This document shows positions 1-15,029 of a DNA stretch of 64,000 nt, piece after piece; positions within the stretch are counted from its first letter, which is position 1; the number at the start of each line of letters is the position of its first letter. The notes beneath the pieces are model-generated. The model searched no databases. It was not told the origin of the DNA and saw only the letters and a program-made list of their open reading frames with translations. The stretch spans positions 28,201-92,200 of the forward strand of contig JAMCVO010000026.1 in assembly GCA_023475715.1 (NCBI GenBank), read 5' to 3'. A program made the translations under genes and the position numbers. The DNA is from Actinomycetota bacterium (lineage in GTDB: Bacteria; Actinomycetota; Humimicrobiia; Humimicrobiales; Humimicrobiaceae).

Positions 1-887
1 CCTACTTCAATGAATTTGGTAAAACCGGAATTTAGTAAGTTCTCGATACTTTCTACCCATTGCACAGGATTTATAAGCTGTCTTACAAGAGTACTTTTTA
101 CTTCATTTTCCTTAATATATGCAACTTCAGTAGAAGAAAAAAAATCAATTTCGGGTTTACCAAAAACTATGTGATTAGCGTCAAAATATTCAGCAAGTTT
201 TTTAGAAGCTTCACTCATTAAAGGACAATGTGATGCTATATTTACCTTCAGCTCTATTACTCTTTTGGCACCGGCAGATTTCAATTCTTCACTGGCTTTT
301 ATTATATCTTCTTTAATACCACTGATCACTATTTGTGAATAATCGTTGTAGTTAGCCAAAAATACTGAATTTTTATATTTTTCAAGGACATTTTCAACTG
401 CAGAAATTTCTGCACCAAGAACTGCAGCCATTACCATCTCGTTGCCTGTCTTGTTTTGAAGTTCTTTCCCAATGCTTCCCATCATTTTTCCTCTATAAAC
501 AACTATTGATGCGCCCTGACTGTAATTGAAAACTCCGCTGCTGTAAAGTGCACTATAATCACCAAGGCTGTGTCCGATAACTGCACCAATGTTATCCTTA
601 TCAAAATTAAGGTTATCTTTAAGATAATCATTCAGTGCGCAGCTTAGACTGTAGATTGATATCTGACAGAATTGTGTCTGGCTAAGAAATCCTGCGCTGC
701 CGTCTTTATTATTTATGATATCCAGCAAGTTCCTGCCAATTATTTCACTTGAGATTTCAAAATACTTCAAATACTTGCTATGAGTATTTAAAAAATCACT
801 TCCCATTAATTCATGCTGTGATCCCTGTCCGGGAAACATCAGGATAAATTTATTTTTATTTTTATTTATGCTGCAGTGGCTGTTCAT
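1..887 (-). CDS. fabD: Malonyl-CoA:ACP transacylase, C-terminus cut by window edge
   Basis: This enzyme loads malonyl groups from CoA onto acyl carrier protein for type II fatty-acid synthesis in the cytoplasm. Reading the minus strand from the ATG at 887 gives an open frame to the window edge. It carries the family hallmarks: an N-terminal FPGQGSQ motif and the nucleophile elbow GHSLGDYSA, whose serine is the acyl-enzyme residue. About 295 residues are visible and the last part (stop codon) lies left of base 1. A second in-frame ATG at 839 (MFPGQGSQ) is an alternative start; neither has a strong ribosome-binding site. It follows fabZ by 12 bases on the same strand, so the two are probably cotranscribed. 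The family call is firm; only the exact start is uncertain. Confidence 0.93.
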   Translation of the reverse strand, partial: MNSHCSINKNKNKFILMFPGQGSQHELMGSDFLNTHSKYLKYFEISSEIIGRNLLDIINNKDGSAGFLSQTQFCQISIYSLSCALNDYLKDNLNFDKDNIGAVIGHSLGDYSALYSSGVFNYSQGASIVVYRGKMMGSIGKELQNKTGNEMVMAAVLGAEISAVENVLEKYKNSVFLANYNDYSQIVISGIKEDIIKASEELKSAGAKRVIELKVNIASHCPLMSEASKKLAEYFDANHIVFGKPEIDFFSSTEVAYIKENEVKSTLVRQLINPVQWVESIENLLNSGFTKFIEV

Positions 888-899
888 ACTTTTATAAGC

Positions 900-1337
900 T
901 TAACTTATTGCAAACATTGCTTCCGAGTAGCAGGCAATATTGCCATCAACTCTTGCGGTTCCGCTGGCCTTCCCGATGTTTCGCCTGAAATCTGTGATTT
1001 CCACTTCGATTTCAAGCTTATCTCCGGGCCTGACTATTTTTTTGAACCTTGCCTTATCTATCCCGGCGAATAGCACCAGCTTTCCTTTGTTTTCCGGCAA
1101 TAATAATACTGTAATCGCACCCGCCTGTGCAATTGCTTCAATCATTAATACACCTGGCATTACGGGGTTGCCAGGAAAGTGGCCCTTAAAATAATATTCA
1201 CTTTCGTCAACATTTTTTACTGCCTTAATACTCTTTCCAGGCTCCACTTCAAGAACTTCATCTATCAGCAAGAAGGGTTCCCTATGGGGTATAATTTTTT
1301 TAATATCTTCTTTATTTAATTTTTTTAAATTATTCAA
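900..1337 (-). CDS. fabZ: 3-hydroxyacyl-ACP dehydratase FabZ
   Basis: This hot-dog-fold dehydratase removes water from 3-hydroxyacyl-ACP in each elongation cycle of fatty-acid synthesis. The 145-residue product has the expected length. It shows the IIPHREPFLLIDEV start typical of FabZ, then the active-site stretch HFPGNPVMPGVLMIEA, with the catalytic histidine and the downstream glutamate. The frame opens with TTG at 1337-1335, preceded by a weak GGTAG ribosome-binding sequence; no ATG lies nearby upstream. The gene is divergent from the biotin ligase gene, with 82 bases between them, and sits directly before fabD. The biotin-dependent carboxylase genes about 8 kb away would supply malonyl-CoA to the same pathway. 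Identification is secure; the TTG start is inferred from alignment to the usual N-terminus. Confidence 0.95.
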   Translation of the reverse strand: MNNLKKLNKEDIKKIIPHREPFLLIDEVLEVEPGKSIKAVKNVDESEYYFKGHFPGNPVMPGVLMIEAIAQAGAITVLLLPENKGKLVLFAGIDKARFKKIVRPGDKLEIEVEITDFRRNIGKASGTARVDGNIACYSEAMFAIS

Positions 1338-1419: not shown

Positions 1420-2100
1420 ATGATGTTATTTTTAAAAATGGAAAATTTTAATAAAGAACAATTCAATAAAAAATTAAGGACCCAATTTATTGGTAAAAAT
1501 TTAATACATTTTGATAGATTAAATTCAACCAATGATTTTGCTTGTGAAATTGAAAAAAAATCCGATTACATCAATTTAAAAAAAGATTTAAACGGCACTG
1601 TAATAATTTCAGAGATACAGGAACAAGGACGCGGCAGCTTTGACAGATACTGGTTATCGCCCCGGGGCGGTTTATGGTTTACAATAATACTGGTAACTAA
1701 AATAAGGCATAAAGATCTTCCCAAAATGAATTTGATCGCAGCTATTTCAGTTGCAGAAATTCTCATAAAAAAATACAGTTTAAAAGTAACTGTAAAATGG
1801 CCGAATGATATTTACTGTAATGAATACAAACTTGCAGGATTTCTTTCAGAAACTGAAAAAATCAATAATCTATTATATTTAAATATTGGAATTGGAATAA
1901 ATTTAAATATAGATTCAAGTGTCTTTTCAGGTCTTAATTTAAAAGCAATTTCGATTATGGATCTTTTAGGCAGAAAATTAAAAAGGGAGATTTTTCTGGC
2001 AGAGATTCTGCTCTGCTTTGAAAATAATTATAGATATTTCGAGAAAACTCAGGATTTTAAGAATATTTTTAATAAAATTAAAGATAATATCATATATTAA
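1420..2100 (+). CDS. birA: Biotin--protein ligase, catalytic domain only
   Basis: It activates biotin with ATP and transfers it to the lysine of carrier domains such as the AccB domain at 10.7-10.95 kb. Visible motifs are GRGSFDRYWLSP (a variant of the GRGRxGR adenylate-binding loop), KWPND with its catalytic lysine, and GIGINLN. At 226 residues it lacks the N-terminal winged-helix DNA-binding domain of bifunctional BirA. It also appears to lack most of the C-terminal SH3-like domain, so it should be a ligase and not a repressor. The start at 1420 has only a GGA upstream, and an in-frame ATG at 1438 (MENFN) is equally possible. It is divergent from fabZ and convergent with the Lon-type protease gene. 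The GRGRR-to-GRGSF change is unusual but lies in a variable part of the loop. Confidence 0.88.
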   Translation: MMLFLKMENFNKEQFNKKLRTQFIGKNLIHFDRLNSTNDFACEIEKKSDYINLKKDLNGTVIISEIQEQGRGSFDRYWLSPRGGLWFTIILVTKIRHKDLPKMNLIAAISVAEILIKKYSLKVTVKWPNDIYCNEYKLAGFLSETEKINNLLYLNIGIGINLNIDSSVFSGLNLKAISIMDLLGRKLKREIFLAEILLCFENNYRYFEKTQDFKNIFNKIKDNIIY

Positions 2101-4745: not shown

Positions 4746-5954
4746 TTATATGATTCCTTTAGCTGTTTTTATCTTCTTGATTAATTTGGGTAATACTTCA
4801 AACAAATCACCAACTATTCCATAATTGGCTATTTTAAAAATAGGCGCTTCCATGTCTTTATTTATTGCTATTACAAGATCTGACGTTTGCATTCCTGCGA
4901 GGTGCTGTATCGCACCGGAAATACCGCATGCGATATATAGCTTTGGATTTACGGTCTTCCCGGTTTGTCCCACCTGGTGCGGATAGGATATCCAGTTAGA
5001 GTCCACTGCAGCTCTGGATGCTCCGACAACTCCGCCAAGCAAGTCCGCAAGCTCTTTTAAAAGCGCAAAACCTTCGCTACCCCCAAGTCCCCTTCCGCCT
5101 GAAACTATTATGTCATAATCAGTAATATTTATTGCTTCACCGGCTTCTTTTTCCGTATTTATCAGCTTATATCTTGTTTTGAATTTTGACTGGTCTATAT
5201 CAATAAATTCGATTCTTGCCATCGGAATTTCCGATTCTGCACTGCAAATCTTTTTTTTCTCCATGACATGCGGCCGTACTGTTGCCATTTGAGGTCTTGC
5301 ACCCTTTGTTATTATTGTTGCAAGAACATTACCTCCGAATGTGGGCCTTGTCTGAAGAAGTATCTTTTTTTCTTCATCAATGGCAAGCGCCGTACAGTCG
5401 GCAGTAAGTCCAGTTTTTATTATTGCCGCAACCTTCGGGGTCAAAGATCTTCCAAAGCTTGTTGCGCCTGCAAGAAATATCTCTGGTTTATATTTATCAA
5501 TAATTTGAACCAATGCCTTGGCATAAATATCATCAAGCTGATTAGAAAATATAGGATTGTCAACACAGTAAATCTTGTCAAGCCCATATTCAAATGCCTG
5601 TGAAAAATTATCTTCTACTTTATTTCCAATTAATACTCCCGACAGTGGTACACCCAGGATTGATGCCAGTTTTCTTCCTTCAGTGGCAAGTTCATATCCA
5701 ACATCAAGTACCTTGCCTTCAATAGTTTCCAGAAACACCATTACACCATTATAATTCGAAAAATCCATGTGTTTGTCTGACAAACCTGTAATTGCTATGG
5801 ATTTGAACTTACATGCATCTATGCATGAACCACAGAAAACACAGTTGTCTTTAACTGAGGCTTTGCCATTTATTATCTCTATTGCGTCATACATACAGAA
5901 ATTTTTACATAAACCGCATCCGGTACACGTACTTTCATCAACATTTATATCCAA
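4746..5954 (-). CDS. etfA: Electron transfer flavoprotein alpha subunit with N-terminal ferredoxin domain
   Basis: This is the FAD-binding alpha subunit of an electron-transfer flavoprotein. Residues 1-58 form a two-cluster ferredoxin module, with CTGCGLCKNFC and CVFCGSCIDAC giving two CxxCxxCxxxC motifs. The EtfA body follows, with the C-terminal FAD signature (SGGRGLGG, then HQVGQTGKTVNP and CGISGAIQH). EtfA proteins with a fused ferredoxin are known from the caffeyl-CoA reductase and electron-confurcating lactate dehydrogenase complexes of acetogens. A bifurcating or ferredoxin-linked role is therefore likely but is an inference. The start is TTG at 5954, preceded by AAAGGA. It is the last gene of the acyl-CoA dehydrogenase-etfB-etfA operon, about 100 bases after etfB. 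Confidence 0.94.
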   Translation of the reverse strand: MDINVDESTCTGCGLCKNFCMYDAIEIINGKASVKDNCVFCGSCIDACKFKSIAITGLSDKHMDFSNYNGVMVFLETIEGKVLDVGYELATEGRKLASILGVPLSGVLIGNKVEDNFSQAFEYGLDKIYCVDNPIFSNQLDDIYAKALVQIIDKYKPEIFLAGATSFGRSLTPKVAAIIKTGLTADCTALAIDEEKKILLQTRPTFGGNVLATIITKGARPQMATVRPHVMEKKKICSAESEIPMARIEFIDIDQSKFKTRYKLINTEKEAGEAINITDYDIIVSGGRGLGGSEGFALLKELADLLGGVVGASRAAVDSNWISYPHQVGQTGKTVNPKLYIACGISGAIQHLAGMQTSDLVIAINKDMEAPIFKIANYGIVGDLFEVLPKLIKKIKTAKGII

Positions 5955-6058
5955 TATTCAGTTCCTTTCGAAGGTCTGCTAATATTTTATAATCAGAACA
6001 TATTTTATTTCCAAACTATTTGCTGCCAGGTTATATTTATAGTCTGCTAATTTTTACA

Positions 6059-6880
6059 TCAGACGATATTTAATTCCTTCAACTTGCCATAAATCTCGTC
6101 AACCTGCTGGTCCGGGCTGCCTTCAAACATCTTAACATCATAGTGATGCTCAGGCATAAAAATCCTGATCACCTGAGTGTAGGAACCTTCTAAACCAACC
6201 TGGCTTTTATCAATGTTAAGATAATTCTTATCCCATACAGGAATAACCTCATTCTTGGCTCTAAGCTTCCCCCGAAGCGATGGTACCCTTGGAATATTTA
6301 TATCTTTACCTACGGAAATTGCTGCAGGAAGCTTTATTTCGAAAGTTTCATACCTGTCTTCCATAAGCCTTTTTATTGTCATTCTGTTTTTATCTATATC
6401 CAAAATACTGCTTGCATAACCAATAAAAGGAATATTTAGCTTATGGGCAAGCTCAGGGCCAACCTGGCCGGTATCACCATCAAGGGTCTGCTTGCCAAGT
6501 ATTATTAGTTTCCAATCATTAAACTTCTTAATTGCTTCGGCAAGAGTAAGTGCTGTGGCCCACGTATCGGCTCCGGCAAAAGCCCTGTCTGAAAGAAGCA
6601 CAGCTTTATCTATTCCCAGTGATATTACTTCTTTTAACATTTCGTTTGATTGAGGCGGACCCATTGTGAGTGCAATTGTTTCAATCTCTTCACCTGTTTG
6701 ACTAAATATGGGCGCCAGCTTTTCTTTTAGTCTTATTCCCTCTTCAATGGCATAAGTATCAAAGGGATTTATTACAGTTTCAACACCTTCTCTTACAAGG
6801 GTATTTGTTTCAGGATTAATTTTAATTTCTGTTGTTCCCGGAACTTGTTTTATGCATACAATAATTTTAATATCTATCAC
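6059..6880 (-). CDS. etfB: Electron transfer flavoprotein beta subunit
   Basis: This is the partner of the ferredoxin-fused EtfA. The 273-residue protein begins IIVCIKQVPG, typical of EtfB. It contains the nucleotide-binding loop GKQTLDGDTGQVGPE, which resembles the NAD(H)-binding version of anaerobic, bifurcating EtfB and not the AMP-binding version of mitochondrial-type ETF. The start codon is GTG at 6880, preceded by AAGGTC. It lies 75 bases after the acyl-CoA dehydrogenase gene and about 100 bases before etfA, the standard bcd-etfB-etfA order. The complex probably couples an acyl-CoA (de)hydrogenase to NADH and ferredoxin; the reaction direction cannot be read from sequence. Confidence 0.94.
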   Translation of the reverse strand: MIDIKIIVCIKQVPGTTEIKINPETNTLVREGVETVINPFDTYAIEEGIRLKEKLAPIFSQTGEEIETIALTMGPPQSNEMLKEVISLGIDKAVLLSDRAFAGADTWATALTLAEAIKKFNDWKLIILGKQTLDGDTGQVGPELAHKLNIPFIGYASSILDIDKNRMTIKRLMEDRYETFEIKLPAAISVGKDINIPRVPSLRGKLRAKNEVIPVWDKNYLNIDKSQVGLEGSYTQVIRIFMPEHHYDVKMFEGSPDQQVDEIYGKLKELNIV

Positions 6881-6955
6881 CTGACCTTGAAATATTTTTA
6901 AACATATAAATAATTATAAACATGATTTATTATTATTTTAATAGCATGAGCGGAT

Positions 6956-8107
6956 TTAAAGTACTCCCCTTTTAATTAAATCCAGGGCAATAATATTTCG
7001 CTGAACTTGATTTGTCCCTTCATAAATCTGGGTTATTTTAGCATCTCTCATCATTTTTTCCACAGGGTATTCTTTCATGAAACCATATCCGCCAAATATT
7101 TGAACGGCGTCAATTGTTACCTTCATTGCCACATCGGAAGCAAATAATTTGGACATTGCCGACAGTCTGGATACATTCTTTTCTCCACTATCAATAACTT
7201 TTGCCGCATGATAAACAAGTGCGCGAGCAGCTTCTATCTGTGTAGCCATGTCAGCCAGCATATGCTGGATAGCCTGCAGAGATGAAATCGATGCACCAAA
7301 TTGTCTTCGCACTTTTGAATAATTTATTGCTTCTTCCAGGGCCGCTTGCGCCACTCCGACTGCCTGTGCACCTACGGCAGGCCTTGATTGATCAAAAGTT
7401 CTCATAGCTGCAATGAAACCCATGCCTTCTCCTGCTATCAGATTTTCCTTTGGAACCCTGCAGTCTGTAAAAATCAATTCCCTGGTAGCAGATGCTCTTA
7501 TTCCAAGTTTGTTTTCTTTTTTACCAAAGTCAAAACCTTTTGTTCCTTTTTCGACTATGAAAGCACTTGCACCTCTTGCACCTTTAGAAGGATCAGTCAT
7601 TGCAAAAACAGTATAAATATCGGCTTCACCACCATTTGTAATCCATTGTTTGGTGCCATTTAAGATATAGAAATCACCATCTTTTACTGCTTTTGTTCTG
7701 ATATTGCCTACATCACTGCCTGCTTCAGGTTCAGTAAGTCCGAATGCAGCAAGTTTTTCTCCGCTTGCCAGCAGTGGAAGATATTTTTTCTTTTGCTCTT
7801 CGCTGCCAAGCAATATTATAGGAATAAAACCCAGCCCGCTTGCGGCATAAGTTGTAGCAACACTTAAATCACCTCTGCTCAGCTCCTCAGTTGCAAGGCA
7901 TACCTCGAAAATTCCTGTTCCCATTCCACCGTATTGTTCAGGAACAAAAAGCCTAAACAAATCACTTTTCCCTATTTCCTTTATTATTTCCGCAGGAAAT
8001 ATGCAGTTCTCATCCATTTCAGCCCTTTGGGGTTTAATTCTCTCATCAACAATTTGCCTGCATATATCTACAATCATCTGCTGTTCCTCTGTTAAAAAAT
8101 AATGCAT
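6956..8107 (-). CDS. Acyl-CoA dehydrogenase (short/medium-chain, butyryl-CoA dehydrogenase-like)
   Basis: This flavoenzyme oxidises acyl-CoA to enoyl-CoA, or runs in reverse as an enoyl-CoA reductase when paired with a bifurcating ETF. The protein of about 383 residues shows the family signatures: AFGLTEPEAGSDVGNIRT in the FAD/substrate region, QWITNGGEADIY, and near the C-terminus QIFGGYGFMKEYPVEKMMRDAK followed by QIYEGTNQVQRNIIA. The glutamate of YEGT is the usual catalytic base of short-chain enzymes. I place the start at 8107 because GGAGG precedes that ATG. The frame stays open for 14 more codons upstream, but there is no ribosome-binding site there. It leads the operon with etfB and etfA. 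Substrate specificity is not readable. Confidence 0.93.
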   Translation of the reverse strand: MHYFLTEEQQMIVDICRQIVDERIKPQRAEMDENCIFPAEIIKEIGKSDLFRLFVPEQYGGMGTGIFEVCLATEELSRGDLSVATTYAASGLGFIPIILLGSEEQKKKYLPLLASGEKLAAFGLTEPEAGSDVGNIRTKAVKDGDFYILNGTKQWITNGGEADIYTVFAMTDPSKGARGASAFIVEKGTKGFDFGKKENKLGIRASATRELIFTDCRVPKENLIAGEGMGFIAAMRTFDQSRPAVGAQAVGVAQAALEEAINYSKVRRQFGASISSLQAIQHMLADMATQIEAARALVYHAAKVIDSGEKNVSRLSAMSKLFASDVAMKVTIDAVQIFGGYGFMKEYPVEKMMRDAKITQIYEGTNQVQRNIIALDLIKRGVL

Positions 8108-8137
8108 AAAAATCCTCCGATAAAAAGTTAATTTTAT

Positions 8138-8209
8138 AAAAAGACGCACCTGACACTATGTTAGTTTCACAAATTGTGAAACTTTATATACCCGGCAGCG
8201 TCTTTTTTT
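8138..8209. repeat. Long imperfect hairpin with nested palindrome in the acd-bioY divergent region
   Basis: Arms AAAAAGACGC (8138-8147) and GCGTCTTTTTTT (8198-8209) are complementary and flanked by A- and T-runs. Between them is a 21-base palindrome (8163-8183, arms AGTTTCACAA/TTGTGAAACT around one base). The left arm continues into ACCTGACACT. That resembles, from memory, REP-type ends associated with RAYT transposases. The element lies 30 bases upstream of the dehydrogenase start and could act as a terminator in either direction, a leader hairpin or a mobile remnant. No transposase is present. Confidence 0.5.
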
Positions 8210-8290: not shown

Positions 8291-9049
8291 ATGAATAATA
8301 ATACAAATCCTGATATATCGAAAAAGTTTTTGTCTTCCGGAAGTGTAAATATCGCAGACGATTCGAACTTTTATATGGAAATAGGTTCGATTTCTATTCC
8401 GGCTGCTGAAAGTCAAAGCAAAACTGCAAAGATATCTTACACTCTGGCATTTGCGGTACTTATGGCAATTTCAGCAAATACATTTGTTTATCTTCCATTT
8501 ACACCTGTACCGATTACCATGCAGGTATTGACTGTTCTGATGTCTGCAATTGCTTTAGGCAGCAGGTTGGCCTTTTTAAGTCAGATGCAATACATATTGG
8601 CAGGATTGCTGGGAGCGCCGGTATTTGCTGGTTTTAAAAGCAGATTTTCAGCAATCATGGGACCCACAGGAGGTTACATAATTGGATTCCTGGCAGCATC
8701 ATTTATTGCCGGATATATTTATGAAAATAATATAGTTGGCACGATTGTAAAATCCTTTAGAATGACAAAGCCAAAAAATTATGCAGAATTTCATGACACC
8801 AGAACTATTTCAATGTTTTTTTCCTGCATCGCGGGGCTTTTAGTCATATATTTGTGTGGTTTTATCCATCTGTATGGTTTTATCTATATGAGTGGAAAAG
8901 CTGGAGGTTTACTCAATATTTTTGAAAAAACCCTAAAGTTAGGAGTTATACCTTTTGTAATTATTGACTTTTTAAAAATACTGATAATCATTAATTTAGA
9001 CAAAGTATTTAGAATAAAGGATAGCTTAGCAAAAGACATACATAACTGA
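8291..9049 (+). CDS. bioY: Biotin transporter BioY (ECF S-component)
   Basis: This is the membrane substrate-binding subunit for biotin uptake. The core from about residue 45 carries the BioY signature: PFTPVPITMQVL, then GAPVFAG, and GPTGGYIIGF, with the aspartate/glycine-rich loop region and about six hydrophobic helices. At 252 residues it is longer than the usual 180-200. A soluble N-terminal extension of about 45 residues precedes helix 1, and an extra loop (about residues 160-175) lies between helices. AAGGTG sits 6 bases before the ATG. No bioM/bioN ATPase or T-component is adjacent, so it may work alone or with a shared energising module. The downstream gene starts 5 bases after its stop, which ties biotin uptake to the carboxylase genes. 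Confidence 0.88.
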   Translation: MNNNTNPDISKKFLSSGSVNIADDSNFYMEIGSISIPAAESQSKTAKISYTLAFAVLMAISANTFVYLPFTPVPITMQVLTVLMSAIALGSRLAFLSQMQYILAGLLGAPVFAGFKSRFSAIMGPTGGYIIGFLAASFIAGYIYENNIVGTIVKSFRMTKPKNYAEFHDTRTISMFFSCIAGLLVIYLCGFIHLYGFIYMSGKAGGLLNIFEKTLKLGVIPFVIIDFLKILIIINLDKVFRIKDSLAKDIHN

Positions 9050-9054
9050 AAAAT

Positions 9055-10950
9055 ATGAGAAAAATAAAAATAAACGATATAACGATCCGGGATTTATTTC
9101 AGAGTATTGATCCAAGATACATAAACCTGCAGGTTATTGATGAACTTCTAAGGCACATGGATAAAATCAAATTTGACAGCATCGAGATATTTGGTGGTTC
9201 TGCTTTTGAAAAAATGCTTCAAAACAATTTCAACAAATCACCTTTCCAGATCGCAGAATATATTAAAAATAAATTGCCGGCAGCAAAATTACAAGCTTTA
9301 TTGGGGGCGCGAAATCTTGCAGGAATAGAAATTTATCCTAAAGACATTATTTCACGATTCATCAAACAATCTGTACAGCATGGTATTAGTAATTTCAGAG
9401 TTTATGATACCTTAAATGATATTGAAAATTTAAAATTTACAATTTATGAAATTGTTAAAAACGGAGCAGCCTGCCAGGGGACAATTATTTATGATAACTT
9501 CAGAGATATTGATTTTTATATTCGGACGGCAAAGGAATTATCTGATGAGGGATGCAGTAGCATTTGTATCAAGGATGTTGAATCAACACTAATTCCAAAT
9601 AAAACGGAACAGATTTTTAAAAATCTTACGACAAGTGTGGATAAACCATTTTATTTCAGTGTTTACAACTTAAGAGGTTTGCAGGTTTCAAATTACTACA
9701 GCGCTTGTATGGCAGGCTGCAGCGGTTTTGACTTTAGCTTTATACCCTCGTCATACAATGATTTTAATCCTTCCATATTTCCATTCATCTTAAGCCTTAA
9801 AGATACAAAAATCGAAAATAACCTTGACTATCTTAAAATCCTGGAACTTTATGAATGGGTAAAAAAATATATATATCCATCGATAAAACAGGATTTAATA
9901 AATTCAAGTTATTTCTACAGCAATAAAAACCAAAATTTATTACCCAAGTGGCTGCTCTCAAGCATCAGCCACCAGTTAAATGAAATTGGAGAAATTGACA
10001 AACTGGATAATGTTCTCGAGGAAGTTTTTAAGATAAAAAATGAAATGGGAAATCCGCCGCTTGCAACACCGGTTGGCCAGATTATTGGAAGTCAGGCCAT
10101 CCTTAATATAATCATTTCTGATTATAGATGGGAAATTATAAATGATGAAATCAAAAAGTTAATTTTCGGATATTACGGACAGCTTCCCAGGGACATAGAT
10201 CCTGATATAAGATCAAGGATTTCCGGAGGAGAAGACGAAATAACAGATGTTATTAAAAATCATGATTATGAGGCTGAAAACACCTATAATCATTGCTCTT
10301 CTGAGCTTAAAGGCATTACAAATAAAGAAGTGGATATTATTACTTACTGCCTTTTTCCTGAAGAAACAATGAAATTTTTAAATAACAGAAAATCCAAAGC
10401 ATCTGGTGTAAGTAAAATCGAAGATCAAAAGGCACAACTTCCCGCACCCAATGTTTTGCTTGGTGAAACAATTTCAGGCAAACAGAATATTTCACTTGAA
10501 GCTATAGATATCAGAAAAATAAGAGAGATAACAGATCTTGTAGAAAGCAGCAATATCGATGAAATAAAACTTGAAATTGATGGTGTTAAGATATCAATTA
10601 ACAAAAGGTCACAAAAAACAACAGATATAAAAAATGCTGAACCTGCTGGTGAAAATATTTCATCCAAAGCTGGCTCTGGCTCAAAAGAAACTGCAAGAGA
10701 TGTAAATTTAGTTCCAATTAAATCTCCGATAGTAGGAACTTTTTACAGGTCTCCGAGCCCGGGAGCTCCACCCTTTTTAAACATTGGAGACCTTGTAAAA
10801 AAAGGCGATACAATTTGTATAATAGAAGCCATGAAGTTAATGAATAAGATAAATTCAGAATACAATGGAGAGGTAATGGAAATACTCGTACAAAATGAAG
10901 AAGCAGTCGAGTATGACCAGATACTGGCTATTATAAAAGTCAATAAATAA
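9055..10950 (+). CDS. Degenerate carboxyltransferase domain fused to complete AccB biotin carrier
   Basis: Residues 1-460 align by eye to the carboxyltransferase/conserved domain of pyruvate carboxylase B and oxaloacetate decarboxylase alpha: ITIRDLFQS, FRVYDTLND, CIKDVES, then TPVGQIIGSQAILN. Residues about 478-631 form a whole AccB: an N-terminal IRKIREITDLVESS segment, an Ala/Gly/Ser-rich linker, and a biotinyl domain with SPIVGTFYRSPSPGA and the acceptor EAMKLMN. The Asp of IRD and the carbamylated-Lys position of CIKD remain. The metal-binding HxH region (LHLHCHATTG in OadA) reads FYFSVYNLRG here, so both ligand histidines are gone. The carboxyltransferase is probably inactive for pyruvate/oxaloacetate. 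The AccB part should work with the accC product encoded 23 bases downstream. The start has no clear ribosome-binding site and may be coupled to bioY. Confidence 0.82.
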   Translation: MRKIKINDITIRDLFQSIDPRYINLQVIDELLRHMDKIKFDSIEIFGGSAFEKMLQNNFNKSPFQIAEYIKNKLPAAKLQALLGARNLAGIEIYPKDIISRFIKQSVQHGISNFRVYDTLNDIENLKFTIYEIVKNGAACQGTIIYDNFRDIDFYIRTAKELSDEGCSSICIKDVESTLIPNKTEQIFKNLTTSVDKPFYFSVYNLRGLQVSNYYSACMAGCSGFDFSFIPSSYNDFNPSIFPFILSLKDTKIENNLDYLKILELYEWVKKYIYPSIKQDLINSSYFYSNKNQNLLPKWLLSSISHQLNEIGEIDKLDNVLEEVFKIKNEMGNPPLATPVGQIIGSQAILNIIISDYRWEIINDEIKKLIFGYYGQLPRDIDPDIRSRISGGEDEITDVIKNHDYEAENTYNHCSSELKGITNKEVDIITYCLFPEETMKFLNNRKSKASGVSKIEDQKAQLPAPNVLLGETISGKQNISLEAIDIRKIREITDLVESSNIDEIKLEIDGVKISINKRSQKTTDIKNAEPAGENISSKAGSGSKETARDVNLVPIKSPIVGTFYRSPSPGAPPFLNIGDLVKKGDTICIIEAMKLMNKINSEYNGEVMEILVQNEEAVEYDQILAIIKVNK

Positions 10951-10973: not shown

Positions 10974-12317
10974 ATGTTCAAGAAAATTCTTGTTGCAAAC
11001 AGAGGTGAAATTGCTGTCAGGATAATAAGAGCCTGCAGGGAACTTGGAATTGAAAGCGTGGCGGTTTATTCTACTGCCGATAAGGATTCTATCCATACGT
11101 CACTTGCGGATTCAAGCATTTGCATTGGCCCTCCCCCGCCAAATAAAAGCTACCTTAATATTAACAATATAATAAGCGCGGCACTTGTTACAAATTGTGA
11201 CGCTTTGCATCCAGGTTATGGATTTCTTGCGGAGAACCCTTCTTTTGAAGAAAATTGCAGTGATAATAATATAACTTTCATCGGGCCGCCGGCTGAGGCT
11301 ATATCTCTCTCGGGAAACAAATCAATGTCTATTGAAGTGATGGAGAAGCATAAGATACCTGTAATTCCTGGTTCAAGCGGAAACGTAGAAAATCTGCGGC
11401 AAGCTTTGAATATAAGCCGCAAACTGGGTTATCCGATAATAGTAAAAGCATCCTTTGGCGGCGGCGGTAAAGGTATGAGAATCTGTAACAACAGCCGTGA
11501 CCTGGAATCACTTTTTCCGCTGGCAAAATCAGAGTCGCTTTCCAGCTTTGGAAAAAGCGAAGTTTATATCGAAAAATATATACAAAAACCCAGACATATT
11601 GAGTTTCAAATAATTGCAGACAACTATGGTAATATCTCATGCGCCGGTGAGAGAGAATGTTCAATTCAGAGGAGACATCAGAAGCTGGTTGAAGAAGCCC
11701 CTGCTGCTAGGCTTTCACAGAAAACCAGAAGAGTTATAAAAGAATATGCTCTAAGAGCCGCCCGTGCAATTAATTATAAAAATTTGGGCACCATCGAATT
11801 TCTTGTTGATAATAATGAAAATTTCTTCTTTATAGAAATAAATTCCAGAATTCAGGTCGAACATCCGGTTACCGAAATGGTAACGGGCATTGATCTTATA
11901 AAAGAGCAGATAAAAATATCCTCCGGAGAAAGAAATGCTTTTATTGGAAAGGATATCATGACCAGTGGAAATGCGATAGAATTCAGGATTAATGCTGAAA
12001 ACAGCGAAAACAATTTTGCTCCATCCCCTGGTAAAATAACCGATTGCTTTCTCCCGGGTGGCCCCGGCATAAGGGTCGATACTTTCATTCATTCAAATTA
12101 TACCGTTCCGCCTTTTTATGACTCTCTTATTGCAAAATTGATTGTATGGGCAAATTCAAGAGAAGAATCAATAAGCAGAGCTTCAAGAGCATTGGATGAA
12201 TTCAAAATTGAAGGTATTAAGACTACTATACCCTTTCATAAAAAGATTCTCTGCAATGAAAATTTTATAGCCGGTGAAATTCATACACACTTTATAGAGG
12301 AAGAGTTCACTGTTTAA
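10974..12317 (+). CDS. accC: Biotin carboxylase AccC
   Basis: It carboxylates carrier-bound biotin using ATP and bicarbonate, the first half-reaction of acetyl-CoA carboxylase. The 447-residue ATP-grasp protein begins FKKILVANRGEIAVRIIRA and carries HPGYGFLAENP, the glycine-rich ATP loop KASFGGGGKGMRI, and the active-site stretch EINSRIQVEHPVTEMVTG. The length is normal, and all the motifs I can check are intact. It is the third gene of bioY-(CT-AccB)-accC and begins 23 bases after its neighbour, without an obvious Shine-Dalgarno. No accA/accD carboxyltransferase genes lie in the window, so the acceptor (acetyl-CoA or another acyl-CoA) depends on subunits encoded elsewhere. Confidence 0.95.
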   Translation: MFKKILVANRGEIAVRIIRACRELGIESVAVYSTADKDSIHTSLADSSICIGPPPPNKSYLNINNIISAALVTNCDALHPGYGFLAENPSFEENCSDNNITFIGPPAEAISLSGNKSMSIEVMEKHKIPVIPGSSGNVENLRQALNISRKLGYPIIVKASFGGGGKGMRICNNSRDLESLFPLAKSESLSSFGKSEVYIEKYIQKPRHIEFQIIADNYGNISCAGERECSIQRRHQKLVEEAPAARLSQKTRRVIKEYALRAARAINYKNLGTIEFLVDNNENFFFIEINSRIQVEHPVTEMVTGIDLIKEQIKISSGERNAFIGKDIMTSGNAIEFRINAENSENNFAPSPGKITDCFLPGGPGIRVDTFIHSNYTVPPFYDSLIAKLIVWANSREESISRASRALDEFKIEGIKTTIPFHKKILCNENFIAGEIHTHFIEEEFTV

Positions 12318-12431: not shown

Positions 12432-12965
12432 ATGGCCCAGGAAATAAAAGTACCTGTATTTGATCCAAAACCAAGAAAAACATTTCACCTCAGAGGCATT
12501 TATAAACCTCTTTACTTTTTTGAAGAACTTTTCAAAAGAAGCGTTTTTGACTGCAGGTCATGTGGCCAGTGCATCCTGAGTACTACAGGTTTTGTTTGTC
12601 CGATGAGATGCCCCAAAACTCTTAGAAATGGTCCGTGCGGGGGCTCAAAAGACGGAATGTGTGAAGTGAATAATACAAAGAAATGCGTCTGGAATGAAAT
12701 TTTTGAGGGAGCCGACAGTTTAAATAGAGCAGACATGCTTTATAAGTTTCAACCGCCCATAGACAATCAGCTTCATGATACATCTGCCGTTGTCAACTGG
12801 CTTGATAATAGGATTGAGGGGATGCACCTGGCATTGCCCGGAAAAGGAAATGCTTTTGTTCAGCTCATAAAAATGGCAATTCATATAATAGCTGTAAGAT
12901 TCAGGAAGTTTATACACTCTCCAAGATACTGGCAGAAACAGGAATCTCATTATGAGGGAGCTTAA
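12432..12965 (+). CDS. metV: MetV-like methylene-THF reductase C-terminal zinc/cluster protein
   Basis: It belongs to the family of the small subunit (or C-terminal domain) accompanying MetF in methylene-tetrahydrofolate reductase of acetogens (PF12225-type). Residues 38-80 are cysteine-rich: CRSCGQCILS, VCPMRCPKTLRNGPCGG, then MCEVNNTKKCVW. This is the characteristic pattern that feeds electrons or metal binding in the complex. The 177-residue length fits a stand-alone subunit. AAAGGAG precedes the ATG and a good promoter lies upstream. MetF, its usual partner, is not adjacent; the neighbours are accC (upstream) and a convergent nitrilase. Part of its 3' end reappears as a decayed copy at 14.1 kb. 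The family call is strong; its role in this organism's C1 pathway is inferred. Confidence 0.85.
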   Translation: MAQEIKVPVFDPKPRKTFHLRGIYKPLYFFEELFKRSVFDCRSCGQCILSTTGFVCPMRCPKTLRNGPCGGSKDGMCEVNNTKKCVWNEIFEGADSLNRADMLYKFQPPIDNQLHDTSAVVNWLDNRIEGMHLALPGKGNAFVQLIKMAIHIIAVRFRKFIHSPRYWQKQESHYEGA

Positions 12966-14093: not shown

Positions 14094-14184
14094 ACAATTC
14101 ATATAAGATTTGTAAGGTTTAAGAAAGTTTATACATGCTCCAAGGCACTGACAGAAACAGGAATATCATTATCAGGAGGCTTAA
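14094..14184 (+). pseudogene. Relic of the 3' end of a second metV-like gene
   Basis: The bases match the end of the metV-like gene (about 12873-12965) at roughly 80% by eye. Translation gives TIHIRFVRFKK, a one-base shift, then FIHAPRH, a stop, and QKQEYHYQEA with a terminal stop. The intact gene reads AIHIIAVRFRK, FIHSPRYW, QKQESHYEGA. Differences fall largely at changes that keep similar residues. This implies a diverged, once-functional copy that later suffered a frameshift and a nonsense mutation. It ends on the stop codon of the convergent nuclease gene. Confidence 0.75.
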
Positions 14185-15029
14185 TAATTATATAGTTCAA
14201 CTAAAAGACCATCTTTGTCTCTTAAGTAAAGAGCATCATGATCATTATTCCATATTGGTTTAGACGAATTCCAGTAGAATTTATTTTCCAAGTCGTTTCC
14301 ATTACCGCTAAATAAGATGAGGCTTGAACCACTTTTAAAAATCATTTTTCCAAAATCATAGATATTTGCAGAAAGATCTTTTACGGTCCATCCAGCCAGA
14401 TTGATATTATAATCGTTATTATTTTTAAATATAATATATTCCCCATTCAGATTAAGCCTATCATCACCTTCAGCATCATAATTTATGCTGATTTCGATAT
14501 TGCTTGAATTTGATTTTTCCCATAACCCAATTTCTTTTTTGCGAGCTTCTCTCTCAGCTTCAATAAATTTATCAGTATATTTGATATTTGGGGGAAAAGT
14601 AAAAACATTTGCAAAACCTCTTTTTACCATTTCCAGATTGATAAAAAGATTTCCCAGATACACATATCTCAGCAGTCTTCCATAAGCATCTTTATCTTCA
14701 ACATCTTTTTCAAGCCTTACATTTTTATTCAGCACCAACAACTTCAGGACTTCTTTTGCCTCTTCGTAAAAATACCTTTCACTTTCCGGGGTATTGATGC
14801 CAATCAGTCTTACATGCTCATTATTTGATAATACAAAAGTGTCTCCGTCTATTACTTCGATAACATTATATTCAAGGATTGGTTTAGTAATACCAGTGTC
14901 TTCAATATCGGAATAATAAAGCCCGCAGCCGGATAAGAAAAAAACAACTGGCGGAAGGATTAGGAAAATTGTCAACACAAATAGAAGAATACCTGAGGTA
15001 TTAAAAATAGGCTTGGCTGGTTGATTCAA
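14181..15029 (-). CDS. Lipoprotein thermonuclease with C-terminal lamin-tail domain
   Basis: This is a predicted surface-anchored nuclease. An N-terminal hydrophobic helix (about residues 12-35) ends in the lipobox LSGC. Residues about 55-170 are a staphylococcal-nuclease fold: VIDGDTF, VRLIGINTPE (Arg and Glu of the active site), DKDAYGRLLRYV (second catalytic Arg) and EAREARKKEIGLW-like ending. Residues about 175-282 form a lamin-tail domain (LNGEYIIFKN, LAGWTVKD, LILFSG, DALYLRD). This domain is often found on secreted nucleases. The start is TTG, overlapping the TGA of yacP as TTGA, so translation is probably coupled. It closes the cysE-cysS-rlmB-yacP operon, an unusual place for a secreted nuclease. 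Confidence 0.88.
   Translation of the reverse strand: MNQPAKPIFNTSGILLFVLTIFLILPPVVFFLSGCGLYYSDIEDTGITKPILEYNVIEVIDGDTFVLSNNEHVRLIGINTPESERYFYEEAKEVLKLLVLNKNVRLEKDVEDKDAYGRLLRYVYLGNLFINLEMVKRGFANVFTFPPNIKYTDKFIEAEREARKKEIGLWEKSNSSNIEISINYDAEGDDRLNLNGEYIIFKNNNDYNINLAGWTVKDLSANIYDFGKMIFKSGSSLILFSGNGNDLENKFYWNSSKPIWNNDHDALYLRDKDGLLVELYNY

Follow-up and report, generated by a model that had tools for sequence, protein, structure and literature searches.

Here, we describe a fused carboxyltransferase (CT)-AccB gene in the window, by which we mean the whole stretch of 64,000 nucleotides that was analysed. The open reading frame occupies positions 9055-10950 of the forward strand and encodes 631 amino acids from an ATG start. 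Residues 1-290 (9055..9924, + strand) are a CT-like TIM barrel homologous to OadA, PycB and the 5S subunit, with its metal site dismantled, and residues 301-481 (9955..10497, +) are the PYC_OADA conserved carboxylase domain (Pfam PF02436, 91.3 bits against a cut-off of 27). Behind these lies AccB (BCCP) in full, its N-terminal segment and thumb included (residues 484-628; 10504..10938, +), which matches TIGR00531 at 139.4 bits (cut-off 115.2) over model positions 1-155 of 156. The Biotin_lipoyl match scores 67.9 bits, and the sequence places the biotinylation lysine at K594, in EAMKLMN (10834..10836, +). The PF02436 model and the alignment identify the front part as a PycB/OadA-type TIM barrel fold followed by the PYC_OADA domain, and it falls under the cut-offs of the curated CT models (TIGR01108, 291.6 versus 756.5 bits; PRK09282, 380 versus 402), with an HMGL-like match of 26.6 under the cut-off of 29. 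As both the reading frame and the alignment are clear, we could rule out that the fusion is due to chance or misreading.

Directly upstream of the fusion is bioY, for biotin uptake (8291..9049, +; PF02632, 121.4 bits, no NCBIfam match), and directly downstream is accC, encoding biotin carboxylase (10974..12317, +; TIGR00514, 640.6 versus 626.5 bits). After accC comes a protein of 177 amino acids with an MTHFR C-terminal domain (12432..12965, +; PF12225), and proteins of the same length and like sequence occupy the same place in L016, L017, L174, L183 and L185. The left end of the window holds a fabD-type acyl transferase cut by the window edge (33..857, − strand; PF00698, 91.3 bits; 42% identical to the FabD-type protein of L016, whose TIGR00128 score of 233.8 is below the cut-off of 260.9), fabZ (900..1325, −; PF07977; 79% identical to L002 FabZ, which matches NF000582 at 178.6 bits against a cut-off of 113) and a birA-type biotin protein ligase (1420..2100, +; PF03099, 67.8 bits; 40% identical to L016 BirA, which scores 131.9 with TIGR00121). 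From left to right, the order is fabD-type, fabZ, birA-type, a Lon-type protease, acyl-CoA dehydrogenase and ETF-like genes, then bioY-fusion-accC.

The acyl-CoA dehydrogenase lies with EtfB-like and EtfA-like proteins (Etf named by likeness) at 4746-8149, divergent from bioY; these genes could, we presume, be an electron-bifurcating set. The EtfA-like protein starts with a ferredoxin-like cysteine stretch, and like genes stand beside the fusion in several relatives. At 14181-15029 the window encodes a Staphylococcal-nuclease domain fused to a Lamin Tail Domain, and proteins with a like start occur downstream of accC in several relatives.

Gene order in relatives links the fusion to fatty acid and biotin genes. 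Locus L016 reads fabG, fabD, fabZ, birA, bioY, fusion, accC; fabG, fabZ and birA score above NCBIfam cut-offs, and bioY, which lacks a model, was named by likeness. By likeness, L010 and L011 have this order too, the L010 data ending before accC. Also by likeness, L171 and L173, which belong to a clade without the catalytic lysine described below, carry fab-type and birA-type genes ahead of the fusion, and in L170, where the site is intact, aroC, aroK, aroB, aroQ, pepP and efp-type genes precede the fusion, which is followed by accC. The order efp-accB-accC is a usual place of accB, and efp lies upstream of the fusion in 25/25 loci checked outside the window's own group.

Alignment to 2nx9, 5ks8 and 1u5j places the former HxH metal-ligand motif at S202-V203-Y204 (9658..9666, +), where S202 and Y204 (nt 9658-9660 and 9664-9666) align with H207 and H209 of OadA (2nx9). 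We take the metal ligands of OadA to be D17, K178, H207 and H209. Additionally, in the alignment to three references, the Arg of ATR is replaced by Y22, and the Arg of LLRG, in active CTs presumably the other arginine lying close to the substrate, by G84. The barrel therefore differs from the CTs of PycB, OadA and transcarboxylase 5S (PDB 5ks8, 2nx9, 1rqb) in having neither metal-ligand histidine and neither R22 nor R84. The 50 listed rows of VIA-align comprised the PC/OadA/5S family and four aldolase-dehydrogenase entries.

Other parts of the site are retained in the window protein, namely R12, D13, Q16, K173 and T338. K173, the Lys of IKD (9571..9573, +), stands where we take the carboxylated lysine of active CTs to be, and T338, the Thr of the TPxSQ motif (10066..10068, +), sits in LATPVGQIIGSQ. 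Judging by the alignment offset and the motifs, R12, Q16 and T338 would match Arg548, Gln552 and Thr882 of R. etli PC; the available text of the respective papers gives Arg548 and Gln552 as binding pyruvate (PMC10653868) and Thr882 as catalytically essential (PMC5895798). The initial annotation of this gene, which had the HxH ligands replaced within a retained CT fold, a complete AccB with its own N-terminal segment behind it, and bioY and accC on its flanks, agrees with these results on every one of those points, the fold being borne out by the PYC_OADA match and the alignment; the Lys of IKD and the Asp of IRD (D13) are still there. It erred in calling the active-site Thr region unrecognisable, since T338 lies in a segment that the same annotation listed as retained.

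To place the gene among its relatives, we used a family set of the window protein and 124 others, from a search that found 181 proteins, 120 of which were listed, and a second, profile search that found 171, again with 120 listed; the profile search returned nearly the same proteins, with four new ones among its 120. Both HxH histidines are absent from 125/125 listed family rows, and so are R22 and R84, position 84 being G in 122/125. By contrast with these losses, the retained residues are kept widely among the listed rows: K173 is K in 124/125 and T338 is T in 119/125, position 13 is D in 108, E in 14 and N in three, R12 is kept in 118/121 rows and Q16 in 121/121. The carrier end is equally stable, with K at position 594 in 122/122 listed rows that have a residue there (125 rows in all), and with the thumb and lysine motif in 121/124 listed family proteins, the remaining three being truncated. 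Both the HxH loss and the AccB fusion, whose conservation in relatives the initial annotation had proposed to check, are thus general among the listed proteins.

No conserved substitute HxH was found in the CT part (residues 1-449) across the 125 listed rows, where only columns 34 (67 rows) and 255 (49 rows) reach at least 30% His. Column 34, the sole one with His in most rows, lies on a helix, and relocation of the ligands was rejected.

The loss is also seen at the DNA level, where 15 of 19 genome loci cover the HxH motif and 15/15 are without it; L018 was not counted, as it has the AccB part alone and its letters are misaligned there. No stop was found inside the match in any of the 19 loci, several of which are partial. 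For the barrel, the window and its nearest DNA relative, L012, give dN 0.036, dS 0.591 and dN/dS 0.061 over 280 codons, and two other divergent pairs give similar ratios (L002/L006, 0.049; L003/L007, 0.063, with dS saturated). Five very close pairs are less supportive of constraint, with noisy ratios of 0.16-0.58 at dS 0.04-0.14; very close pairs such as L004/L005 (0.58) and L003/L008 (0.32), both at dS below 0.07, do not indicate strong constraint. The pattern would fit a pseudoenzyme: catalytic residues are lost throughout the family, and frame and fold are under purifying selection. A lone decayed allele was rejected, given that 125/125 listed rows share the loss, and the earlier judgement that purely erosive decay is unlikely holds up on the same count and on the ratio of 0.06 to the nearest relative. 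We did observe an extra copy of a fusion-type gene with internal stops, L180, on contig C204 of G003.

We assign the window to a class of 40 genomes in our collection because L012, from class member G012, is 93% identical over 280 residues; 37 of the 40 match the family profile, some only partly. Within this class, the site of G020 is complete (HCH, K, R, R, T), as is its AccB. In G037, G038 and G039, HCH is retained and IKD reads IMD, so that the catalytic lysine is replaced by Met; the Arg of RD has become Gly in G037 and G039, and the G038 sequence is cut there. Altogether, 16 stretches from divergent members comprise one intact, three Lys-less and nine HxH-less sites, and three that do not cover the site. 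We found no clear case of a shortened accB in the class: the short pieces in G018, G019, G028, G030 and G034 end at contig ends, and G021 has a stop 13 residues from the contig end.

Intact fusions are common beyond this class. With the G020 protein as query, 7997 candidates were scored, 7996 of which passed an E-value of 1e-3, and the best 120 of these were listed; all 120 have the intact site D,R,R,K,H,H,T, and 114 carry the thumb and biotin lysine by the motif pattern that we applied. These Actinomycetota CT-AccB fusions share the architecture of the window protein and differ from it by the complete site. The idea that the fusion itself is new was therefore rejected. Source names for the genes are ‘oxaloacetate decarboxylase alpha subunit’ or ‘AccB’, and for an intact one ‘2-oxoglutarate carboxylase large subunit’.

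Trees were built on representatives chosen by identity thresholds. With the site columns removed, 47 representatives recover the HxH-less family as a single clade (100/100); its sister group is the Lys-less clade (100/98), and intact G020 comes next (99/93). The intact neighbour of the window's clade is the pair G020/P0127.

A second lineage with dismantled sites emerged from 246 genomes drawn from the phylum, in which TIGR00531 matched 232 (100 above the cut-off) and PYC_OADA matched 133. Three genomes, G230, G200 and G142, have weak PYC_OADA matches (47-58 bits) and encode CT-AccB fusions in which D13, K173, both histidines and T338 are replaced. We refer to the class of G142 as class Y; its 199 genomes were searched, 145 matched at an E-value of 1e-30, and we read 83 sequences from 82 genomes (G306 twice), which are best matches and picks rather than a random draw. 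Among these 83 rows, 17 are intact, 62 have lost the site and four (G323, G274, G344 and G325) stand outside the count for a missing site column. Five of the 17 intact rows (G283, G301, G345, G415 and G273) have no biotin motif by pattern and may be unfused or motif-variant. One of the 62 lost rows, YG439 of G439, is a CT on its own with no carrier attached; we excluded it from the topology test and pocket analysis described below.

Leaving aside the duplicate and the unfused G439, 60 class Y genomes have a lost site, of three types. Type 1 (41 genomes) has L, I or V in place of D13, mostly H or N in place of K, and mostly YxQ in place of HxH; type 2 (17) keeps D13 and has K mostly changed to S; and type 3 (G335 and G295) has HxH changed to DxN. 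EAMK is kept in the lost fusions wherever the end is present and in frame. The operon place is kept as well, with efp upstream in 24/24 loci and accC downstream in 23/24 (G319 is cut before accC), and 20 of these 24 loci have the lost site. AccA (PF03255) was found in all 32 lost-site genomes checked of the 60. This large set of dismantled class Y fusions corresponds to L233, L234, L235 and loci L245-L342, and one of its three types has diverged so far that the PYC_OADA Pfam model misses it in at least one genome (G053).

In a tree of 55 rows, the lost class Y fusions form one clade (100/98) apart from the window's clade. Constraining all lost fusions to a single clade costs 25.4 log units in the AU test (p-AU 0.0355), a modest rejection of a single loss, with long branches in play. 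Because there are two separate loss clades, the comparison supports at least two dismantlings of the metal site, one in the window's class and one in class Y.

In a barrel that had become no more than a leftover, drift would be expected at the old pocket before anywhere else. The window's family shows the opposite pattern: the barrel strand tips, on the active-site side, have a mean entropy of 0.66 bits versus 1.56 at the strand bottoms, and 0/10000 random sets were as low. Comparing the HxH-less family with the intact set, for which the CT columns alone were used and the AccB half was left unaligned, we found 18 positions within residues 1-250 that are nearly fixed in both groups yet differ between them. 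Thirteen of these lie in loops on the active-site side (F15, E52, A85, D147, E176, S177, N205, R207, S228, S232, S233, Y234 and D236). Because the strand tips are the most conserved and 13 of the 18 group-specific positions are on that side, the pocket face in the window's family is, by this measure of conservation, rebuilt rather than abandoned. The ratio of tip to barrel entropy is 0.31 in intact fusions, 0.49 in the window's family, 0.64 in the class Y L-type and 0.85 in the class Y D-type, with 1/5000 random sets as low for the L-type and 277/5000 for the D-type.

Exactly one biotin carboxylase C-terminal domain was found in 35 of the 40 class genomes and none in five; by coordinates, 34 of the 35 have it on a contig that also bears all or part of the fusion, the exception being G029. 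Matches of accA/accD type (Carboxyl_trans), ordinary and separate from the fusion, occur in 34/40 genomes, and in eight (G010, G011, G015, G024, G025, G026, G037 and G039) lie on a contig bearing the fusion or a piece of it; the 64-kb window itself has none. Among 61 biotin/lipoyl matches in 19 relatives of the window's class, we found no second AccB-type carrier besides the fusion: 18 matches are the fusion (the carrier part of G012 lies beyond the contig), two are of PycB/OadA type (L121 and L134), 31 are lipoyl and 10 are weak matches without an AccB motif. By likeness, the weak matches are six RnfC-like proteins and four GcvH-like ones with ETMK; as observed in L345, L348, L349 and L350, this lysine motif is unlike the usual lipoyl motif. 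The carrier also has the form of an AccB, being thumb-type with a motif-to-lysine spacing of 37, whereas the PycB/OadA-like P0121 and P0122 have a short carrier and a spacing of 30. A second, PycB-like chain also occurs in seven genomes of the class, including L121 (G002) and L134 (G009); the site of L134 is wholly intact, and that of L121 is intact in the part present.

Taken against AccB (BCCP) as known from TIGR00531, the fusion is alike in the full model match, the thumb, the EAMKLMN lysine, the adjoining accC and the nearby fab genes, and differs by about 480 extra N-terminal residues of pyruvate-type CT. We consider it probable that the fusion is the AccB subunit of an otherwise ordinary acetyl-CoA carboxylase, with a former pyruvate-type CT kept in front as a non-catalytic scaffold. 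AccC, the product of the adjoining gene, would load CO2 on the biotin that K594 carries, from which separate AccA/AccD would pass it on to acetyl-CoA, to supply fatty acid synthesis. An active pyruvate/oxaloacetate-type carboxyltransferase would be the ancestor of the first 480 residues, and the ancestral CT-AccB chain probably served two enzymes with one AccC: a pyruvate-type carboxylase, using its own CT, and acetyl-CoA carboxylase, using AccDA. The window's lineage would then have abandoned the CT half, losing both metal-ligand histidines and the two arginines, and kept the domain, which may dimerise and hold the carrier near AccC and AccDA as a non-catalytic scaffold. Since conservation in the barrel is highest at the old active-site face, which has a new residue set, this face probably binds a ligand or a partner surface. 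We infer the AccB function, the dual ancestral use, the dimer and the combined scaffold and ligand role from these comparisons. Several findings count against this best reading: D13, K173, T338, R12 and Q16 are kept, which is more than a pure scaffold needs, seven class genomes have the second PycB-like chain, barrel dN/dS is higher in the very close pairs, the AU rejection of a single loss is modest, and the window has no accA/accD.

The alternative that fares best is that the rebuilt pocket is a sensor, binding a 2-oxoacid or another metabolite and thereby tuning acetyl-CoA carboxylase. It would account for the strongest constraint lying on the active-site face, and R12 and Q16, which align with the pyruvate-binding Arg548 and Gln552 of R. 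etli PC described in the available text of PMC10653868, are conserved (118/121 and 121/121 rows, respectively). However, the position of R84 is G in 122/125 listed rows, and the conservation could just as well reflect a surface where AccB or AccC docks, so we hold the sensor to be a tentative possibility. A broader version, in which an ancestral hub of one biotin and one AccC served two carboxylases, dropped its pyruvate half at least twice and turned the pocket into a metabolite sensor gating fatty acid synthesis, is somewhat more doubtful still.

It is very unlikely, in our view, that the barrel is an active CT with metal-free or differently liganded chemistry, passing carboxyl groups from the carboxybiotin of the same chain to another acceptor. 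The retained K173, T338, R12 and Q16 would suit such an enzyme, as would the pocket face, the most conserved part of the barrel, and a new polar set nearly fixed on or beside it (D147, E176, S177, N205, R207, Q210, S232, S233, Y234 and D236). Yet R84, R22 and both histidines are gone from all 125 listed rows, the surrounding genes serve fatty acid synthesis, and class Y lost its site in different ways, D and K being among the residues replaced, at the same operon place, with a D-type pocket that is no longer specially conserved (0.85, 277/5000). That the barrel is an inert leftover, a tolerated N-terminal passenger of AccB, is the least probable reading of all: a domain may be hard to lose once fused, the class Y D-type pocket looks relaxed, the very close pairs have higher dN/dS and G003 has an extra copy with stops, but the 19 loci (several partial) have no stop inside the match, the three divergent pairs, one of them dS-saturated, have barrel dN/dS of 0.05-0.06, the new residues are invariant in the family, many species of two lineages retain the domain, and the window's class offers no clear shortened accB.

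The initial annotation had left the choice among a scaffold for acetyl-CoA carboxylase, a regulator and new carboxyltransferase chemistry; of these, scaffolding or regulating acetyl-CoA carboxylase fits best, and new chemistry is the weakest option because class Y dismantled its site otherwise while keeping the fusion and the operon place. We conclude that the role common to both lineages would be structural, inside acetyl-CoA carboxylase, to which the window's lineage appears to have added a ligand site or docking face.

Non-catalytic parts of carboxylases have precedents. The available text of PMC7835884 describes AccE of Actinobacteria and plant BADC, which is also named in the accessible part of PMC11926652, as non-catalytic parts that assemble or tune acetyl-CoA or acyl-CoA carboxylases. 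AccE is small (8.7 kDa in T. fusca) and of other origin than the window's barrel, and neither protein is described in that text of PMC7835884 as a dead CT fused to a carrier. The Chloroflexus acetyl-CoA carboxylase, as far as the available part of PMC11077971 goes, resembles the present case in having a carrier fused to a partner, there as a BC-BCCP fusion, and separate CT subunits; the partner there is an active biotin carboxylase, whereas here it is a dismantled CT. Lombard and Moreira proposed, in the part of PMC3199775 available, an ancient BC subunit shared by a pyruvate carboxylase of CT-BCCP type and a CoA carboxylase, the carriers being separate. The chain described here would go beyond this, as it would put both uses on one carrier.

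The claim that a metal-less CT joined to AccB is an undescribed architecture stands in part. The fusion is widespread and often intact, but a search of the open-access literature found no description of the dismantled form. The novelty is the dismantled site, not the fusion. A whole catalytic domain has seemingly been retired yet kept, in parallel lineages, within the carrier subunit of another enzyme. This makes it possible to test whether two carboxylases formerly shared a single biotin chain, and how an active site that has died becomes a structural or sensing part. The CT-based names that dismantled fusions carry are probably wrong, and their naming matters for metabolic models of uncultured Actinomycetota.
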